Assembly (NCBI GenBank): GCA_000403335.2
Contig: KE159617.1
Span: 461,301-525,300 of the forward strand
From: Lachnospiraceae bacterium MD335
Lineage (GTDB): Bacteria > Bacillota > Clostridia > Lachnospirales > Lachnospiraceae
Reading direction: 5' to 3'
DNA length: 64,000 bases
The translations under genes were made by a program, and so were the position numbers. The notes below the pieces were generated by a model. It was not told the origin of the DNA, ran no database searches, and worked only from the letters and a program-made list of their open reading frames with translations. This document shows positions 27,627 through 38,437 of the stretch, piece after piece; position 1 is the stretch's first letter, and every line of letters starts with the position of its first letter.

Positions 27627-27651
27627 GAAAACGTTTTCTGAAAACGTTTTC
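27627..27651. promoter_or_regulatory. Tandem LacI-type operators
   Basis: Two perfect 12-bp palindromes GAAAACGTTTTC lie one base apart (27627-27638 and 27640-27651), centres 13 bp apart. They stand 58 bases before the GTG of the next LacI gene and probably serve autoregulation, perhaps also control of the phosphorylase. Confidence 0.8.
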
Positions 27652-27709: not shown

Positions 27710-28711
27710 GTGGTTTCAATAAGAGATGTGGCAAAAGAGGCAGGCGTTGCCATTTCCACGGTTTCAAAGGTGCTCAACAATTATCCGAATGTGCGGGATG
27801 AGACAAAGGCGCGGGTTAACAGGGCGATAGAACATTTGGGTTTTGTGCCGAATTCCATTGCATCGGCGCTTTCCTCGAAACGTTCGGGCCGTGTGGCGCT
27901 GGTGCTTGACGTGGACAGAAATGCGCAGGCGGTAGATGAGATCCCGATGCAGTATATGATTGGCGCAATCAGTCGTGCCAAGGAGCTTGGTATGGATATT
28001 ATCACGGTGTTTACTGCAATGCTTGGAGAGATGGACACTGAGGAGATGACGCGCTATTTTCAGTCGCAGAGTGTTGAGGGACTGATTGTCTGCGGTCTTT
28101 CCGAGGAGGATGAGGCGCTTGGGCGTCTGATAAAAAGCGGTAAATTTAAATCCGTTTTAATCAATGCGCCCGATGTTGATGAGAACACGTCAAGTATTCA
28201 TATCAATAACCGCAGGGCACAATATGAGGTCGCAAAAAAGTTTCTGATGGAAAGCACCGCATTTTGCAGGGAAAAAAGGATATTATATATATCAGGGAAA
28301 AAAGAGGGATATGTTTCATGCGAGCGTCTGAAGGGAATGCAGGAGCTTGCAGAGGAACTTTCCCTGACGCTTTTGGTGCGCATGGGACATTTTAGTGAAT
28401 TGGAGGCAAGGAAGCTTACGATGCAGTATGCGGCATATAAGGATGCAATTATCTGCGCATCGGATTTAATGGCGATTGGAGCAATGAAAGCGTTGATTGA
28501 TATGGACATTTACCGTCCGGTATGCGGTTTTGACGGCATCAACCTGATGGGATACGCGGGTAAGCAGATGCACACGGTCGGACAGGATTTCAAAAAAACC
28601 GCGGCGTGTGCCGTCGAGGAAGCCGCAAGGCTGATTGGCGGAGAAACGGGACGCGAGATTGTACTTGCGCACAAGCTGATGCGGATTAAATATTTGGATG
28701 TTATTTCATAG
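27710..28711 (+). CDS. LacI-family regulator of glycogen/maltodextrin genes
   Basis: 333 residues from GTG 27710, with GAGG and AGGAGG just upstream. The helix-turn-helix is SIRDVAKEAGVAISTVSKVL; the hinge reads NYPNVRDETKARVNRAIEHLG, followed by a type I binding-protein core. The effector domain is less typical at its C-terminus (CGFDGINLMGYAGKQMHTVGQ). It lies between debranching enzyme and phosphorylase, with tandem CG-centred operators upstream, so it most likely represses these genes. The CG-centred operator type (AACGTT) fits MalR- and CcpA-like members of the family. The effector is unknown. Confidence 0.88.
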   Translation: MVSIRDVAKEAGVAISTVSKVLNNYPNVRDETKARVNRAIEHLGFVPNSIASALSSKRSGRVALVLDVDRNAQAVDEIPMQYMIGAISRAKELGMDIITVFTAMLGEMDTEEMTRYFQSQSVEGLIVCGLSEEDEALGRLIKSGKFKSVLINAPDVDENTSSIHINNRRAQYEVAKKFLMESTAFCREKRILYISGKKEGYVSCERLKGMQELAEELSLTLLVRMGHFSELEARKLTMQYAAYKDAIICASDLMAIGAMKALIDMDIYRPVCGFDGINLMGYAGKQMHTVGQDFKKTAACAVEEAARLIGGETGREIVLAHKLMRIKYLDVIS

Positions 28712-32272: not shown

Positions 32273-32330
32273 TTTGACAATTTGTGCAGTGCCTTATTGT
32301 AATTGACGAATAAGGTACTGCATGTCAAAT
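32272..32330 (+). terminator. Large hairpin after ugd
   Basis: ATTTGACA and TGTCAAAT close a stem that continues as TGCAGTGCCTTATT with AATAAGGTACTGCA. It lacks a clear T tract, so termination is probable rather than certain. Confidence 0.6.
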
Positions 32331-32409
32331 TCGTCTCGTTTATTTTGTACAAAAAGTAATGGAAATATTTGCCAATTATTACAAAAAATATCTTGTTACG
32401 TTTTTTCTA

Positions 32410-32438
32410 TTGCATTTTTTTCGTTAAAATGCTATTAT
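32410..32438 (+). promoter_or_regulatory. Promoter of the maltodextrin transport genes
   Basis: TTGCAT (32410-32415) and TATTAT (32433-32438) are 17 bases apart. The predicted start, near 32445, lies just upstream of four operator-like sites. Confidence 0.75.
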
Positions 32439-32450
32439 ACAGTTGTCACT

Positions 32451-32499
32451 TGGAAACGTTACCGATAACGTTACTGGAAACGATGCCGAAAACGTTTCG
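32451..32499. promoter_or_regulatory. Four LacI-type operators at 12-bp spacing
   Basis: CG centres fall at 32457, 32469, 32481 and 32493, exactly 12 bp apart. The cores read AACGTT, AACGTT, AACGAT and AACGTT; the best site is CGAAAACGTTTCG. They begin just after the predicted transcription start, so a bound repressor would block initiation or early elongation. The last site is 60 bases ahead of the start codon of the binding-protein gene. Confidence 0.8.
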
Positions 32500-32560
32500 G
32501 AATAATATTTCCGCAAAAAGCAATAATAAGAAGAATAGTAAAGGAAAGAGGTATTGGATT

Positions 32561-33994
32561 ATGAAAAAGAAATTATTATGTACCGTTTTAAGTGCGACAA
32601 TGGTAGCAGCCATGCTTGCAGGCTGCGGCAGCAGCGATAGCGGAAACAATACGGATACACAGCAGCCTGCCCAGTCACAGGAACAGCAGCCTGCCCAGTC
32701 ACAGGAACAGCAGCCTGCGGCAGATGATACACAGCAGTCTGCGGCAGACACACAGACACCTGCGTCCGGCGAGGGAAAGGTTTATTATCTGAACTTCAAG
32801 CCTGAGCAGGGAGCGGCTTGGGAAGCGCTTGCAGCAAAATATACAGAAGAAACCGGCGTTCCTGTTTCTGTACAGACAGCGACTTCAGGAACATATGAGT
32901 CAACCTTGAAATCCGAGATTGCAAAGACAGAGGCTCCTACACTGTTTCAGGTAAACGGACCGGTTGGACTTGCAACATGGAAGGATTACTGTTATGACCT
33001 TTCCGGTTCTGATGTTTACGGACAGTTAAAGAGCGACGACTTTGCATTAAAAGAGGGCGATGAGGTTAAGGGTATCGCGTATGTTGTAGAGACATACGGA
33101 CTGATTTACAATGCGGACATTTTAAATGATTATTTCACAAAGGATTATGCGGTTGTGACAAGCGTTGAGGAAATCAATTCGTTCGACCAGTTAAAGGCTG
33201 TTGCGGACAGCATTCAGGCAAACGCTGACGACCTTGGCGTAAAGGGTGCGTTCACGTCGGCAGGTATGGACTCAAGCTCTGACTGGAGATTTAAGACACA
33301 CCTTGCAAACCTTCCGATTTACTATGAGTATGAAGCGGATGGCATCGGCTCAACGGATGCAATCAAAGGAACTTACTTAGATAATTACAAGAACATTTGG
33401 GATTTATATATCACAGACTCTGTCTGTGCACCGACACTGCTTTCAAGCAAGACCGGTGAGGATGCGACGGCAGACTTCGCACTCGGTGATGCGGTATTTT
33501 ATCAGAACGGTACATGGGCTTACAATGATTTGGTAGACGCAGGCATGGACGGTGACTCACTTGGAATGCTTCCGATTTATATCGGCGCTCCCGGCGAGGA
33601 AAATCAGGGACTCTGCACAGGCAGCGAGAATTACTGGTGTGTAAACAAGAATGCTTCTCCGGAGGATATTCAGGCAACGCTTGACTTTATGAACTGGGTT
33701 GTAACATCAGAGACAGGCTGCAAGGCACTGACAGAGGAAATGGGATTTGTATGTCCGTTTACGGCATTTGACAGCTATCCGGCGAGCAATCCGCTTGTAA
33801 ATATTGCGAATGACTATGTTTCAAACGGAAAGACTTCCGTAGCATGGACTTTCACGACAATGCCTTCTGAGAACTGGAAGAACAATGTCGGCAGCGCACT
33901 CTTAGAGTATGCGCAGGGCACAGGTCAGTGGGATGCAGTTGTAACGGCATTCGTTGACGGATGGGCCGAGGAGTATGCGGCAGTAAACAACTAA
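32561..33994 (+). CDS. Maltodextrin-type ABC transporter binding lipoprotein
   Basis: 477 residues. The signal peptide ends in the lipobox LAGC (cleavage near residue 20), so it is a lipid-anchored extracellular protein. A low-complexity linker (Gln, Pro, Ala, Ser) follows to about residue 65, then a family 1 solute-binding fold with GKVYYLNFKPEQGAAW, AYVVETYGLIYN and ENYWCVNKNASPED. ATG 32561 has AGGAAAGAGG upstream, and operators and a promoter precede it. Two permeases follow after a terminator-like hairpin. Substrate (maltose, maltodextrins) is inferred from the locus: debranching enzyme, phosphorylase and MalQ-type enzyme are neighbours. Confidence 0.9.
   Translation: MKKKLLCTVLSATMVAAMLAGCGSSDSGNNTDTQQPAQSQEQQPAQSQEQQPAADDTQQSAADTQTPASGEGKVYYLNFKPEQGAAWEALAAKYTEETGVPVSVQTATSGTYESTLKSEIAKTEAPTLFQVNGPVGLATWKDYCYDLSGSDVYGQLKSDDFALKEGDEVKGIAYVVETYGLIYNADILNDYFTKDYAVVTSVEEINSFDQLKAVADSIQANADDLGVKGAFTSAGMDSSSDWRFKTHLANLPIYYEYEADGIGSTDAIKGTYLDNYKNIWDLYITDSVCAPTLLSSKTGEDATADFALGDAVFYQNGTWAYNDLVDAGMDGDSLGMLPIYIGAPGEENQGLCTGSENYWCVNKNASPEDIQATLDFMNWVVTSETGCKALTEEMGFVCPFTAFDSYPASNPLVNIANDYVSNGKTSVAWTFTTMPSENWKNNVGSALLEYAQGTGQWDAVVTAFVDGWAEEYAAVNN
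32663..32718 (+). repeat. Tandem 24-bp repeat in the lipoprotein linker
   Basis: Two identical 24-base copies (32663-32686 and 32687-32710) encode QPAQSQEQ each, and a third copy starts (CAGCCTGC). The repeat keeps the reading frame, so gain or loss of units would only change linker length. Confidence 0.9.
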
Positions 33995-34145: not shown

Positions 34146-34988
34146 ATGGAAAAAGCAATTAAACGATATTTCCCAATATTCGCACTGCCTACCCTTGCGG
34201 CATTTACAATTGGATTTATCCTTCCGTTTTTATTAGGCGTGTATTTATCCTTCTGTGAATTTACCACAGTAACTGATTCCAAATTTGTCGGATTCAAAAA
34301 TTATATCAGAATTTGGGGCGATTCCACCTTTACGCACTCTCTTTGGTATACGGCGCTGTTTACGATTGTGTCGGTGCTGTTCATTAATATTATTGCCTTT
34401 GCAGTGGCAATGCTTCTGACAAAAGGAATTAAGGGAACGAATGTTTTTAGAACGGTATTTTTTATGCCGAACTTAATCGGCGGTATTATTTTAGGTTACA
34501 TTTGGCAGCTTATCCTGAACGGTCTTTTGGCAAATCTTGAGCGTACATTGACCTACAATTCCGCTTACGGCTTTTGGGGACTGGTAATCCTGATGTGCTG
34601 GCAGCAGGTCGGATACATGATGATTATTTATATTGCGGGTATTCAGAACATTCCCGGCGATTTGATTGAAGCGGCAAAGATTGACGGTGCAAACAACAGG
34701 CAGCTGTTAAGACACGTAACGCTTCCGATGGTAATGCCGTCCATCACAATCTGCTCGTTCTTAACCTTAACCAATTCCTTCAAGCTCTTTGACCAAAACC
34801 TTGCACTGACTGCAGGTGAGCCGTCGAACAAGTCGGAGATGCTCGCCCTCAACATTTTCAACACGTTCTATGGCAGAAACGGCTGGGAGGGCGTTGGTCA
34901 GGCGAAGGCGGTCATATTCTTTATTCTTGTGGCAGTTATCGCGATTGTTCAGCTTCGCGCAACGAGAGATAAGGAGGTGCAGGCATAA
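34146..34988 (+). CDS. Sugar ABC transporter permease (MalF-like)
   Basis: 280 residues with six predicted membrane helices, the first near 13-35. The cytoplasmic EAA loop reads EAAKIDGANNRQLLRHVTLP, the contact site for the ATPase. The phrase IWQLILNGL and the overall length fit MalF/UgpA-type permeases without the long periplasmic loop seen in enteric MalF. AAAGGTG lies upstream. Stop and next start overlap (TAATG at 34986-34990), so the two permeases are made in equal amounts. No ATPase gene follows; a shared MsmK-type subunit elsewhere is expected. Confidence 0.92.
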   Translation: MEKAIKRYFPIFALPTLAAFTIGFILPFLLGVYLSFCEFTTVTDSKFVGFKNYIRIWGDSTFTHSLWYTALFTIVSVLFINIIAFAVAMLLTKGIKGTNVFRTVFFMPNLIGGIILGYIWQLILNGLLANLERTLTYNSAYGFWGLVILMCWQQVGYMMIIYIAGIQNIPGDLIEAAKIDGANNRQLLRHVTLPMVMPSITICSFLTLTNSFKLFDQNLALTAGEPSNKSEMLALNIFNTFYGRNGWEGVGQAKAVIFFILVAVIAIVQLRATRDKEVQA

Positions 34989-35830
34989 TGTCAGACGTAA
35001 GAAAAGCAAAACACGGCGGACTTTTAACGGCGATTTTTTCTGTGGTATCGTTCATTTATATCATGCCGATTATCATTGTGCTGTATAATTCATTTAAAAA
35101 GAAAATTTTTATCAGCAACCGTCCGTTCTCACTGCCTGACGCAAAATCGTTTGTCGGACTGGAGAATTATATCAGCGGTATTGAGAAAATCGAGCTTCCC
35201 AAGGCGTTTGGTTATTCACTCTTTATCACGGTCTGCTCCGTGTTTGTGATTATCCTCTGCACTTCCATGTGCGCATGGTACATCACAAGAGTAAAAAATA
35301 AATTTACGTCAGGAATGTATATGCTCTTTGCATTTTCCATGATTGTACCGTTCCAAATGGTGATGTTTACGTTGTCGAAAATTGCAGATATGTTGCATTT
35401 GGGCAATCCGGTTGGTATAATTATTGTATACCTCGGCTTTGGTGCAGGACTTGCGGTGTTCATGTTCTGCGGCTTTGTAAAGTCGATACCGCTCGAAATC
35501 GAGGAGGCGGCGATGATTGACGGCTGTACGCCCATTCAGACGTACTTTAAGATTGTATTTCCCGTAATGAAACCGACGGCAATTTCGGTTGCGATTTTGG
35601 AGGCAATGTGGGTTTGGAACGACTATCTTCTGCCGTATCTTGTACTTGATATTAAGAAATATAAGACAATTCCAATTGCGATACAGTATTTGAAAGGCGG
35701 ATACGGCGCAATTGATATGGGCGCCATGATGGCGATGATTGTGATTGCGATTATTCCGATTATTATTTTCTATATTTCATGCCAAAAATACATTATTGAG
35801 GGTGTTGTCGCAGGAGCGGTAAAAGGCTAA
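34988..35830 (+). CDS. Sugar ABC transporter permease (MalG-like)
   Basis: 280 residues with six helices. Its EAA loop is EEAAMIDGCTPIQTYFKIVF, and the stretch FIYIMPIIIVLYNSF marks the first helix. Together with the preceding permease it forms the membrane channel for maltodextrin-type sugars. The start overlaps the previous stop by one base. It is followed after 25 bases by the MalQ-type gene, so transport and intracellular processing share one transcript. Confidence 0.92.
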   Translation: MSDVRKAKHGGLLTAIFSVVSFIYIMPIIIVLYNSFKKKIFISNRPFSLPDAKSFVGLENYISGIEKIELPKAFGYSLFITVCSVFVIILCTSMCAWYITRVKNKFTSGMYMLFAFSMIVPFQMVMFTLSKIADMLHLGNPVGIIIVYLGFGAGLAVFMFCGFVKSIPLEIEEAAMIDGCTPIQTYFKIVFPVMKPTAISVAILEAMWVWNDYLLPYLVLDIKKYKTIPIAIQYLKGGYGAIDMGAMMAMIVIAIIPIIIFYISCQKYIIEGVVAGAVKG

Positions 35831-35855: not shown

Positions 35856-37340
35856 ATGAGAAGATGTGGCGTATTGATGCCGATATCGAGTATTCCGACC
35901 CGGTTTGGCATAGGAGGCTTTTCAAAGGAAGCATATGATTTTGTGGACTTTTTGGCAGCGTCCGGACAGTCGCTTTGGCAAATTCTTCCCCTTGGTCCTA
36001 CGGGATACGGGGATTCTCCTTATCAATCCTTTTCGACCTTTGCGGGCAATCCGTACTATATTTGTCTTGACAGGCTGATTGATGACGGACTGCTCACCGA
36101 AAAGGAGTGCTTGGAGGCGGATTTCGGTGACGATGCGGGAAAAGTCGATTACGAAAAGATTTACAATACAAGATTTGCATTACTGCGAAAAGCGTTTGAC
36201 CGGTCAAATATTGGTGATAGCGGGGACTATCGCAGGTTTGTTGAGGAAAACAGCCAGTGGCTGAAGGATTATGCGATGTATATGGCAGTTAAGGACTCGC
36301 TTGACGGTATTTCGTGGATTGAATGGGACGAGGGACTTCGCCTGAGAAAGCCTGAGGTTATGGCGGAATATGAGGAGAAGCTTGCCGATGAAATCGCGTT
36401 TTACTGCTATCAGCAGTTTCTGTTTTCCGCACAGTGGCTTGCACTGAAAACATACGCGAACAAAAAAGGAATTGAAATTATCGGTGACATTCCGATTTAC
36501 GTGGCATTTGACAGTGCCGATACGTGGGCAAATCCGGAGCTTTTCCAGCTTGATGAAGAAAATTATCCGGTGGCGGTGGCAGGCTGCCCGCCGGATGCGT
36601 TTTCGGCGACAGGACAGCTTTGGGGTAATCCGCTTTATCGTTGGGAATACCATGAGGAGACGGGCTTTGCGTGGTGGATACGCAGGCTGGCACATTGCTT
36701 CAAATTGTATGATGTGGTGCGTATCGACCATTTCCGCGGGTTTGACGAATACTGGTCCATTCCGTACGGCGACGCTACCGCACAGAATGGCGTGTGGAAA
36801 AAAGGTCCTGGATACAAACTGTTTGAGACGGTGAAAAAAGCGCTTGGTAACCGTGCGGTTATTGCGGAGGATTTGGGATTTTTGACGCCGGGTGTGTTAA
36901 AGCTTGTGAAAAAGACGGGATATCCGGGTATGAAGGTTTTGCAGTTTGCATTTGATTCGCGGGAGGAGAGCGACTATCTTCCTTATAATTATCCGAAAAA
37001 CTGTGTGGTCTATACGGGAACGCACGACAATGACACCGTAAACGGCTGGATTACTGCGATGAGCAGAAAAGACCTGGCGTTTGCGAAGAAGTATTTGGGC
37101 GTGAAACGAAACGCTGGGGTCTGTGACAGCCTAATCCGTGCAGCGCTTGGATGCGTTGCCGATACAGCGGTTATTCCCATACAGGACTATTTGGAGCTTG
37201 GCGGTGAGGCGCGGATTAATACACCGTCCACACTTGGCGGAAACTGGGAGTGGAGAATGGAGAGCGGCGCGTGCACACAGGAGCTTTCAAAGCATATGCT
37301 TGAGCTTGCACGGCTTTACGGAAGGGCGAAAAGGTACTAG
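35856..37340 (+). CDS. malQ: 4-alpha-glucanotransferase (GH77)
   Basis: 494 residues. MalQ rearranges alpha-1,4-glucans, building longer dextrins from maltose units for phosphorylase. The GH77 motifs are all present: QILPLGPTGYGDSPYQSFS near the start, VRIDHFRGFDEYW (nucleophile Asp), VIAEDLGFLT (acid/base Glu) and YTGTHDNDTVNGW. It is transcribed with the two permeases 25 bases upstream. The 3' end of the coding region lies in a tandem 20-base repeat, so the stop codon sits in the first copy. Family and function are clear. Confidence 0.95.
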   Translation: MRRCGVLMPISSIPTRFGIGGFSKEAYDFVDFLAASGQSLWQILPLGPTGYGDSPYQSFSTFAGNPYYICLDRLIDDGLLTEKECLEADFGDDAGKVDYEKIYNTRFALLRKAFDRSNIGDSGDYRRFVEENSQWLKDYAMYMAVKDSLDGISWIEWDEGLRLRKPEVMAEYEEKLADEIAFYCYQQFLFSAQWLALKTYANKKGIEIIGDIPIYVAFDSADTWANPELFQLDEENYPVAVAGCPPDAFSATGQLWGNPLYRWEYHEETGFAWWIRRLAHCFKLYDVVRIDHFRGFDEYWSIPYGDATAQNGVWKKGPGYKLFETVKKALGNRAVIAEDLGFLTPGVLKLVKKTGYPGMKVLQFAFDSREESDYLPYNYPKNCVVYTGTHDNDTVNGWITAMSRKDLAFAKKYLGVKRNAGVCDSLIRAALGCVADTAVIPIQDYLELGGEARINTPSTLGGNWEWRMESGACTQELSKHMLELARLYGRAKRY

Positions 37341-37399: not shown

Positions 37400-38437
37400 G
37401 TGTTTGAGCCAACAATTAAGGATATCGCCAAAATATGCGGAGTAGGTGTCAGTACGGTATCGAGGGCGATTAACAATCACCCTGATATTAATCCGGACAC
37501 CAAAGCAAAAATACTGGATGCCATCAAGGAGTATGGTTATGTTCCAAACGACAGTGCGAGAAACCTGAAGCGTTCGGATGCAAGGGCGATTGCAGTGCTG
37601 GTTAAAGGTATTGCAAACCCGTTCTTTACCAATATGATTGCCATTATTGAGCAGGAATGCAAGAAAAAAGGTTATGCGATGGAGCTCTCACACATTGAAT
37701 TTGATGAAGATGAGGTTGATGTCGCACAAAAAGTAGTGAAAGAAAAGCGGCTTCGTGGTATAATATTTCTCGGAGGATATTTTTCGCGCTCCGAGGAGAA
37801 GCTGAAAAAGCTGAACGTTCCGTTTGTATTCAGTACGGCGGGCGGAATTCCGGAGAATATATCGAAGGACTCGTACTCCAACATCGGAGTCGATGACCGT
37901 ATGGAAAGCGAACGGATGGTAGATTATCTGATTGATCTCGGGCACAAGAGGATTGCAATTATTGCGGCGGAGACGTATGAGGAATGTATCGGCAGGCTGC
38001 GTCTTGAGGGGTATTATGACGCACTGAAAAAGCACGGCATTGCGTCTGACGCGAAGCTGATTTTTGAAACGGACGAGGAAATCAACCACTTTTCAATGGA
38101 GAACGGTTATATCACGACAAGGCGTCTGATTGAGAGCGGCGAAAAATTCAGTGCGGTTTATGCGGTGTCGGACACACTTGCAATCGGCGCATGCAGGGCG
38201 CTTCAGGAGGCGGGCTTTCGCATTCCCGAAGATGTCTCGGTAGCAGGCTATGACGGCATCGACATCGGAAGCTACATAACTCCCCGTCTTACCACAATGC
38301 GTCAGCCAGTGGAGGAGATGGCTAAGGCGACAGTCAAACTGCTGTTTGCCATTATATCAGGAAAGAAAGGGCATCAGCATATGGTGTACGAGGCAAAGCT
38401 GATGGAGAGGGAATCGACTGGGGGGATTGCAAATTGA
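37400..38437 (+). CDS. LacI-family regulator (MalR-like)
   Basis: 345 residues from GTG 37400 with GGAG upstream. The helix-turn-helix is TIKDIAKICGVGVSTVSRAI; hinge NHPDINPDTKAKILDAIKEYG. The core domain has VLVKGIANPFFTNMIAIIEQ and DVSVAGYDGIDIGSYITPRLTT, both typical of GalR/LacI repressors. It lies downstream of malQ and its stop overlaps the start of a TPR lipoprotein. With the other LacI gene at 27710 it is one of two candidates for the CG-centred operators ahead of the transporter. Which one binds is not decided by sequence. Confidence 0.9.
   Translation: MFEPTIKDIAKICGVGVSTVSRAINNHPDINPDTKAKILDAIKEYGYVPNDSARNLKRSDARAIAVLVKGIANPFFTNMIAIIEQECKKKGYAMELSHIEFDEDEVDVAQKVVKEKRLRGIIFLGGYFSRSEEKLKKLNVPFVFSTAGGIPENISKDSYSNIGVDDRMESERMVDYLIDLGHKRIAIIAAETYEECIGRLRLEGYYDALKKHGIASDAKLIFETDEEINHFSMENGYITTRRLIESGEKFSAVYAVSDTLAIGACRALQEAGFRIPEDVSVAGYDGIDIGSYITPRLTTMRQPVEEMAKATVKLLFAIISGKKGHQHMVYEAKLMERESTGGIAN

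Follow-up and report, generated by a model that had tools for sequence, protein, structure and literature searches.

The promoter of a starch-sugar uptake operon in this Lachnospiraceae genome raises the question of which protein reads four palindromes that follow one another at an exact 12-bp step, and how such proteins would be arranged on the DNA. This layout is kept in many related genera and could show how LacI-type repressors can sit so close together. The window (the whole 64-kb stretch of DNA that was analysed) contains the operon in the order SBP-malF-malG-malQ-lacI downstream of the array. All features given here are on the forward strand. The first operon gene encodes a malE-like solute-binding protein of an ABC sugar transporter (SBP; 32561-33994; SBP_bac_8) and is followed by genes for malF-like (34146-34988) and malG-like (34988-35830) ABC permeases, for the 4-alpha-glucanotransferase malQ (35856-37340; NF011080 and TIGR00217 above cut-off) and for a MalR-like LacI-family repressor, here called LacI-2 (37400-38437). 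A second LacI-family protein, LacI-1 (27710-28711), is encoded between glgX and glgP.

The CG centres at 32457, 32469, 32481 and 32493 lie exactly 12 bp apart, as the initial annotation had claimed. Inspection of the sequence places them in four imperfect GGNAAC-GTTNCC palindromes (the hyphen marks the centre) that abut without a gap from 32452 to 32499. Site 1 (32452-32463, GGAAAC-GTTACC, CG 32457) is the strongest, with two good half-sites, and is followed by site 2 (32464-32475, GATAAC-GTTACT, CG 32469), site 3 (32476-32487, GGAAAC-GATGCC, CG 32481) and site 4 (32488-32499, GAAAAC-GTTTCG, CG 32493). Their centres are 104, 92, 80 and 68 bp upstream of the ATG of the SBP gene (32561). A degenerate, AT-centred fifth unit may continue the 12-bp phase (32500-32511), which is uncertain and recognized by a lenient rule only. 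All four sites and the alignment of relatives show the even palindrome with a central CG that is given for 1173 of 1303 LacI-family transcription factors in the accessible part of PMC4052901. The predicted operon promoter has the position that the initial annotation had assigned to it, with a -35 TTGCAT at 32410-32415, a 17-bp spacer and an extended -10 TGCTATTAT at 32430-32438, and transcription is expected to start near 32445, upstream of the array. This promoter was read from the sequence; with only 3/6 matches in TTGCAT, it was not listed by a mechanical promoter scan.

A run of four CGs at step 12 occurs once in the 64-kb window. Periodicity of CGs alone is weak evidence, since bare runs of at least four CGs occur in the window at other steps as well (e.g., four at step 21 and four at step 24). 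When palindrome quality was also required (at least 7/10 positions), runs at 12 bp reached at most 2 sites in 300 first-order Markov copies of the 64-kb window, versus 4 observed. Exact matches to the two-unit pattern AACGNTNCCGANANCGNT were found in the whole genome only at the array; at up to one mismatch there were 12 matches, of which these two were exact, and the reversed-pattern control gave 8. Single sites GGNAACGNTNCC were not enriched genome-wide (33 matches versus 51 for the control), and thus only the array stands out.

The array is best read as a MalR-type operator array, and the candidate protein from its own operon has the features of an ordinary LacI-family protein. LacI-2 contains a LacI helix-turn-helix and a ligand domain and matches the CcpA, PurR and LacI structures by sequence. 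The match to full-length LacI ends at residue 329 of 360, so that the portion beyond it, the LacI tetramer tail, is unmatched in LacI-2. Residues of the DNA-binding and hinge regions (T19 V20 S21 R22 A23 N25 and S52 A53 R54 L56 K57) do not vary among 18 aligned LacI-2 proteins. Every match of LacI-2 to curated NCBIfam models was below cut-off (best 220.9 versus 382), and MalR is therefore a name by context: the genes behind the array encode a putative maltodextrin transporter and a 4-alpha-glucanotransferase, the kind of genes that MalR controls. LacI-1 has probable operators of its own, a pair of perfect GAAAACGTTTTC palindromes upstream of lacI-1 (27627-27651, CG 27632 and 27645, 13 bp apart). 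The pair was kept in 30/30 same-genus loci, with a distance of 14 bp in 25 and of 13 bp, as in GntR-type sites, in 5 of the 30. In the half-site matrix analysis a pair at 13-14 bp was present in 5/13 LacI-1 rows and absent in 8/13. With these palindromes of its own for LacI-1, the two LacI proteins of one locus would use different palindromes and steps.

Which of the two proteins the array belongs to was followed in relatives. A search with the SBP gene found it in 47/60 relatives at a loose cut-off and in 136/397 family genomes at E 1e-60. The 75 loci analysed were the window, 60 regions of the family-genome set and 14 of the 60-relative set, and 6 regions with short flanks were skipped. A LacI-2 ortholog was defined by at least 45% identity and an array by at least two sites at 12 bp (the strict rule); the site score was written after the first alignments of relatives were seen, with spacing not part of the score. 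Arrays were present in 36/38 loci with a LacI-2 ortholog, in 2/9 with a more distant LacI and in 3/22 without a LacI match (36/38 versus 3/22, Fisher p 1.4e-10 by a kinship-blind statistic). A third batch of 20 loci included 12 chosen as known array carriers and was hence dropped, together with the window, in a recount that gave 19/21, 2/9 and 2/20 (p 1.7e-7). The linkage of a cognate LacI protein to the site that characterizes LacI-family operators was found here, and judged by this co-occurrence the array is very probably the operator of LacI-2.

Some loci depart from this rule. Two with LacI-2 failed the strict array rule (L073 and L082) and three had arrays without a LacI-2 match in reach (L101, L117 and L146). 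In genome G008, two units were seen (in L013) and LacI-2 was not found, in a genome that is 66% complete and on a contig of 5.6 kb. A natural loss, on the other hand, speaks for the link: genome G024, of the same genus as the window, kept SBP, malF, malG and malQ at 81-96% identity and had no LacI-2 match in a genome that is 85% complete, with the operon end present on the contig; its array has decayed, with a changed flank and one centre lost. Related 12-bp phasing was seen beside more distant LacI proteins in L084, L087, L096 and L097, as well as in L145 and L146, which are from other families.

A second set was anchored on LacI-2. The LacI-2 alignment against named genomes gave 574 relatives, of which the best 80 were used; these have mostly Lachnospiraceae titles and include Eisenbergiella tayi, Butyrivibrio, Blautia and [Clostridium] symbiosum. 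This set shares some genomes with the SBP-anchored set and the two are not independent. Among the best 80 of 574, 45 loci hold the SBP gene and its upstream stretch, with an array in 40/45, and an array was found in 10/35 of the others. The gene behind the array is the SBP gene for 41 of the 50 arrays from these best 80, malQ for 7 and another gene for 2; 25 loci lacked both the SBP gene and a strict array. The 5/45 SBP loci that failed the strict rule were L148, L179, L189, L206 and L224; L206 has an SBP of only 22% identity, and L179, L189 and L224, like L082, retained the 12-bp phase with a CA centre. In L148/L016 (G031:C40:1-843), the SBP gene is broken into oppositely oriented pieces at the contig end, which is probably an assembly fault. 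A three-unit pattern was found in at least 26 of 299 family genomes, a lower bound because the pattern missed the window's own array (second junction CTGG). Its matches in these genomes lie before SBP (20), malQ (2), another LacI gene (1) or no recognised gene (3). In two LacI-2-anchored loci, 3-4 sites with a 12-bp step form an array that is located about 7 kb upstream of LacI-2 and not before the usual transporter gene (L212:2851-2907 and L217:2836-2880), with malF/malG homologs of 32-34% identity 3-4 kb further on; these arrays are possibly further targets.

The step between the sites hardly varies. Adjacent spacings of up to 20 bp in the 38 LacI-2 loci were 12 bp in 68/73 cases, 6 bp in three and 19 and 20 bp in one each; 11 bp was found in 0/73, as was 13 bp, the approximate distance between centres in GntR-type sites. 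Outside the window's own genus (26 loci, 24 genera) the counts were 41 for 12 bp, three for 6 bp and one each for 19 and 20 bp. Pair distances in the LacI-2-anchored set (best 80 of 574) were 12 (101), 24 (56), 36 (22), 13 (3), 14 (3) and 11 bp (0). The number of sites is variable: the 70 distinct arrays (35 per set) have two (16), three (28), four (20) or five sites (6), and the lenient rule gave 1 unit in one of the 38 LacI-2 loci, 2 in six, 3 in 17, 4 in 10 and 5 in four. The initial annotation had proposed alignment of the leader in related species as a check and had named a loss of periodicity there as refuting its reading; the periodicity is retained, with the 12-bp step and the position kept and 2-5 sites. 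In 43/58 loci with a site, 26-29 bp separate the beginning of the best -10-like stretch from the first CG (27 bp in 22 and 29 bp in 12). The array thus starts at a roughly constant distance from the promoter, whereas its end is variable.

The arrays also have a direction. Where sites abut, a perfectly symmetric junction would read CCGG, and the junctions in the 70 distinct arrays were CCGA in 115/156, CCGG in 21 and TCGG in 2. Counted per array, 63 had CCGA, 0 had TCGG and 7 had neither. In a half-site matrix trained on the last right halves, left halves scored 10.3 at site 1 but no more than 6.7, 6.5 and 5.2 at sites 2, 3 and 4, and right halves other than the last scored 11.0, 9.6, 9.4 and 8.1. 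Going by these scores, site 1 outranks the others, and the upstream site is the favoured one at each junction. The junction A weakens the left half-site downstream of it and fits the outer preference of the site upstream. The polarity could also come from shared descent or from avoidance of CCGG, and as the arrays share descent, polarity and spacing do not count as independent events.

Closely spaced LacI-family sites as such have been described before. The initial annotation had held that there is no standard LacI arrangement with four such sites, which was too strong: the accessible part of Ravcheev (2014; PMC4052901) gives overlapping sites about 13 bp apart for 110 operons and, for 5 operons, four sites next to one another. 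It is argued there that these sites are no artefact; interaction between dimers at a distance of about 13 bp is stated to be impossible, and the binding mode is left open. Such sites, e.g., those of E. coli GntR at gntKU, resemble the array in that they are CG-centred, closer than the usual operator length, conserved and unexplained in their binding mode; the array differs by its step of 12, its 2-5 sites instead of the usual pair, its promoter-fixed start and its polar internal half-sites. Upstream of gntK in E. coli K-12 (L147:7594-7731), GTTACCGATAAC is followed 13 bp on by GTTACCCGTAAC, with the two centres counted by hand; these are the array's junction-register half-sites with one extra base. 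MalR of Bacillus, Streptococcus, Lactobacillus and Caldicellulosiruptor is likewise a LacI-family repressor of maltodextrin uptake and use with a CG-centred palindrome, but the accessible part of PMC8579813 describes a common palindromic motif for these regulons and no 12-bp multi-site array. LacI/GalR palindromes of C. phytofermentans lie at or after the transcription start, with three copies in the cphy2742 5' UTR, but belong to a pectin regulon and have a cre-like motif (PMC5171806, accessible part). A literature search, with most subscription literature outside it, found no 12-bp LacI array and no MalR operators in Lachnospiraceae. Pairs of LacI-family sites at a distance of about 13 bp are thus already known; the array is of the same kind but takes a new form, with a stricter step of 12 bp, more sites, polarity and a promoter-fixed start.

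For the function of the array we propose that LacI-2, encoded at the operon end, would bind the leader DNA from just after the transcription start and block the promoter, presumably until it is released by a maltodextrin-type sugar. The chances are about even that several LacI-2 dimers then lie side by side and occupy the array cooperatively. In rigid B-DNA a 12-bp step corresponds to 41 A and 51 degrees (with assumed radii; this does not decide whether dimers clash), which bears out the offset of about 50 degrees between neighbouring dimers in the initial annotation. Dimers on abutting 12-bp sites would thus stand 41 A and about 51 degrees apart. Binding may nucleate at the strong, promoter-proximal site 1 and proceed by downstream addition onto sites with a weak upstream half, and occupancy of the array would give a steeper and more specific switch than one operator. 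A bolder picture, less likely than not, is that of a LacI-family repressor that acts as a short directional filament, which would nucleate on a full-strength operator just after the start and grow in the downstream direction, advancing 12 bp and about 51 degrees per step, while the number of sites would tune the steepness.

A precedent for close-packed dimers is CodY, of which, according to the accessible part of PMC10415144, two dimers bind overlapping sites cooperatively with a 60-degree, 30-A step, and affinity drops to the single-site level when 1-2 bp are inserted. CodY resembles the proposed arrangement in that its dimers occupy overlapping sites cooperatively, at a small and constant step and about 60 degrees apart, extendable to three sites, but it is an unrelated protein with an unrelated motif, a 9-bp step and shape readout, and shows that the principle works, not that the array belongs with it (PMC10415144, same part). 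Since CodY dimers bind overlapping sites cooperatively with a fixed step, cooperative side-by-side LacI-2 dimers, nucleated at site 1, are favoured over mutual exclusion.

Mutual exclusion, which is possible and clearly the less probable of the two, involves the same repressor. Neighbours would exclude each other, at most alternate sites (1 and 3 or 2 and 4) would be filled, and overlapping registers would raise occupancy by statistics and rebinding, giving graded control. With 12-bp steps, half-sites of neighbours come to lie in major-groove stretches next to each other, the accessible part of PMC4052901 places the overlap in the zone of specific contacts and denies any interaction of such dimers, and the more similar pairs in the window are sites 1 and 3 and sites 2 and 4. 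A purely statistical benefit needs no exact step, yet 11 and 13 bp are missing from the 73 spacings, and the site numbers (16/28/20/6 arrays with 2/3/4/5 sites, n = 70) show no preference for parity. The initial annotation had considered competitive or staggered binding with graded control, but a coupling of neighbours would explain the constant spacing no less well. A natural series of 2, 3, 4 and 5 sites with one invariant step and a linked regulator, a close relative without the regulator and without an intact array, and a second LacI of the same locus at 13-14 bp occur together, which makes the coexistence of close-packed dimers directly testable.

It is improbable that the exact step merely results from a unit of 12 or 24 bp having been duplicated in tandem, with the spacing itself unselected. 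Sites 1-2 and 3-4 of the window do resemble a duplicated 24-bp unit, such a duplication can copy spacing, and the number of units varies from 2 to 5. Against this, leader length and the distance between -10 and array drift among relatives while the step is constant across 24 other genera, and centres have decayed from CG to CA, AG or AT in some loci while the phase stays.

Very unlikely, too, is that the sites belong to CcpA, as cre, or to LacI-1 instead of LacI-2. Sites 1 and 3 are one position off the cre consensus, and LacI-1 is encoded in the same locus and has palindromes that are also CG-centred. The arrays follow LacI-2, and the genome shows no enrichment of single sites of the kind expected for cre (33 versus 51, for a scored pattern that is not the cre consensus itself). 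The initial annotation had named both LacI proteins as candidate binders; LacI-2 was retained, as arrays follow its gene, and LacI-1 was discarded because it has its own GAAAACGTTTTC palindromes with their own spacing of 13-14 bp in 30/30 same-genus loci. In addition, genome G004 (76% complete) has no LacI-1 match yet a four-unit array.

There is also little to recommend another register, in which GntR-type palindromes GTTACC-GATAAC, centred on the junction CG, would be read, perhaps by another regulator or together with the first register. The first junction CG is present in 38/38 LacI-2 loci, above the second centre (0.95), and the E. coli gntK leader has GTTACCGATAAC and then GTTACCCGTAAC 13 bp on. 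In this register, however, the well-conserved left half TTGGAAAC at the array start would be an orphan, L096 and L112 have GGAAACGTTTCC sites, and the junction CG arises anyway when GGNAAC-GTTNCC sites abut.

Lastly, that the repeat acts in RNA, by leader hairpins CGUUA-CCGA-UAACG or by a terminator-like hairpin at 32486-32500, is extremely unlikely and was rejected: although the polar array would be transcribed, a short hairpin is possible in each unit, one inner pair was slightly enriched (0.44 versus 0.37 shuffled, p 0.026) and there was one terminator-like match, covariation of the informative outer pair was not above that of shuffles (0.58 versus 0.60), the leader folds with ordinary energy, like its shuffles (z -0.86), 32300-32700 has no Rfam match, and 1.0 terminator-like sites are expected by chance. 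A test for DNA dyads, in which most positions are nearly fixed, gave 0.516 versus 0.565 shuffled at offset 1 and 0.363 versus 0.296 at offset 3. The terminator-like hairpin, CCGAAAACGTTTCGG (32486-32500), is formed by site 4 and followed by a T-rich stretch, and the same letters are present in L133 and L134.
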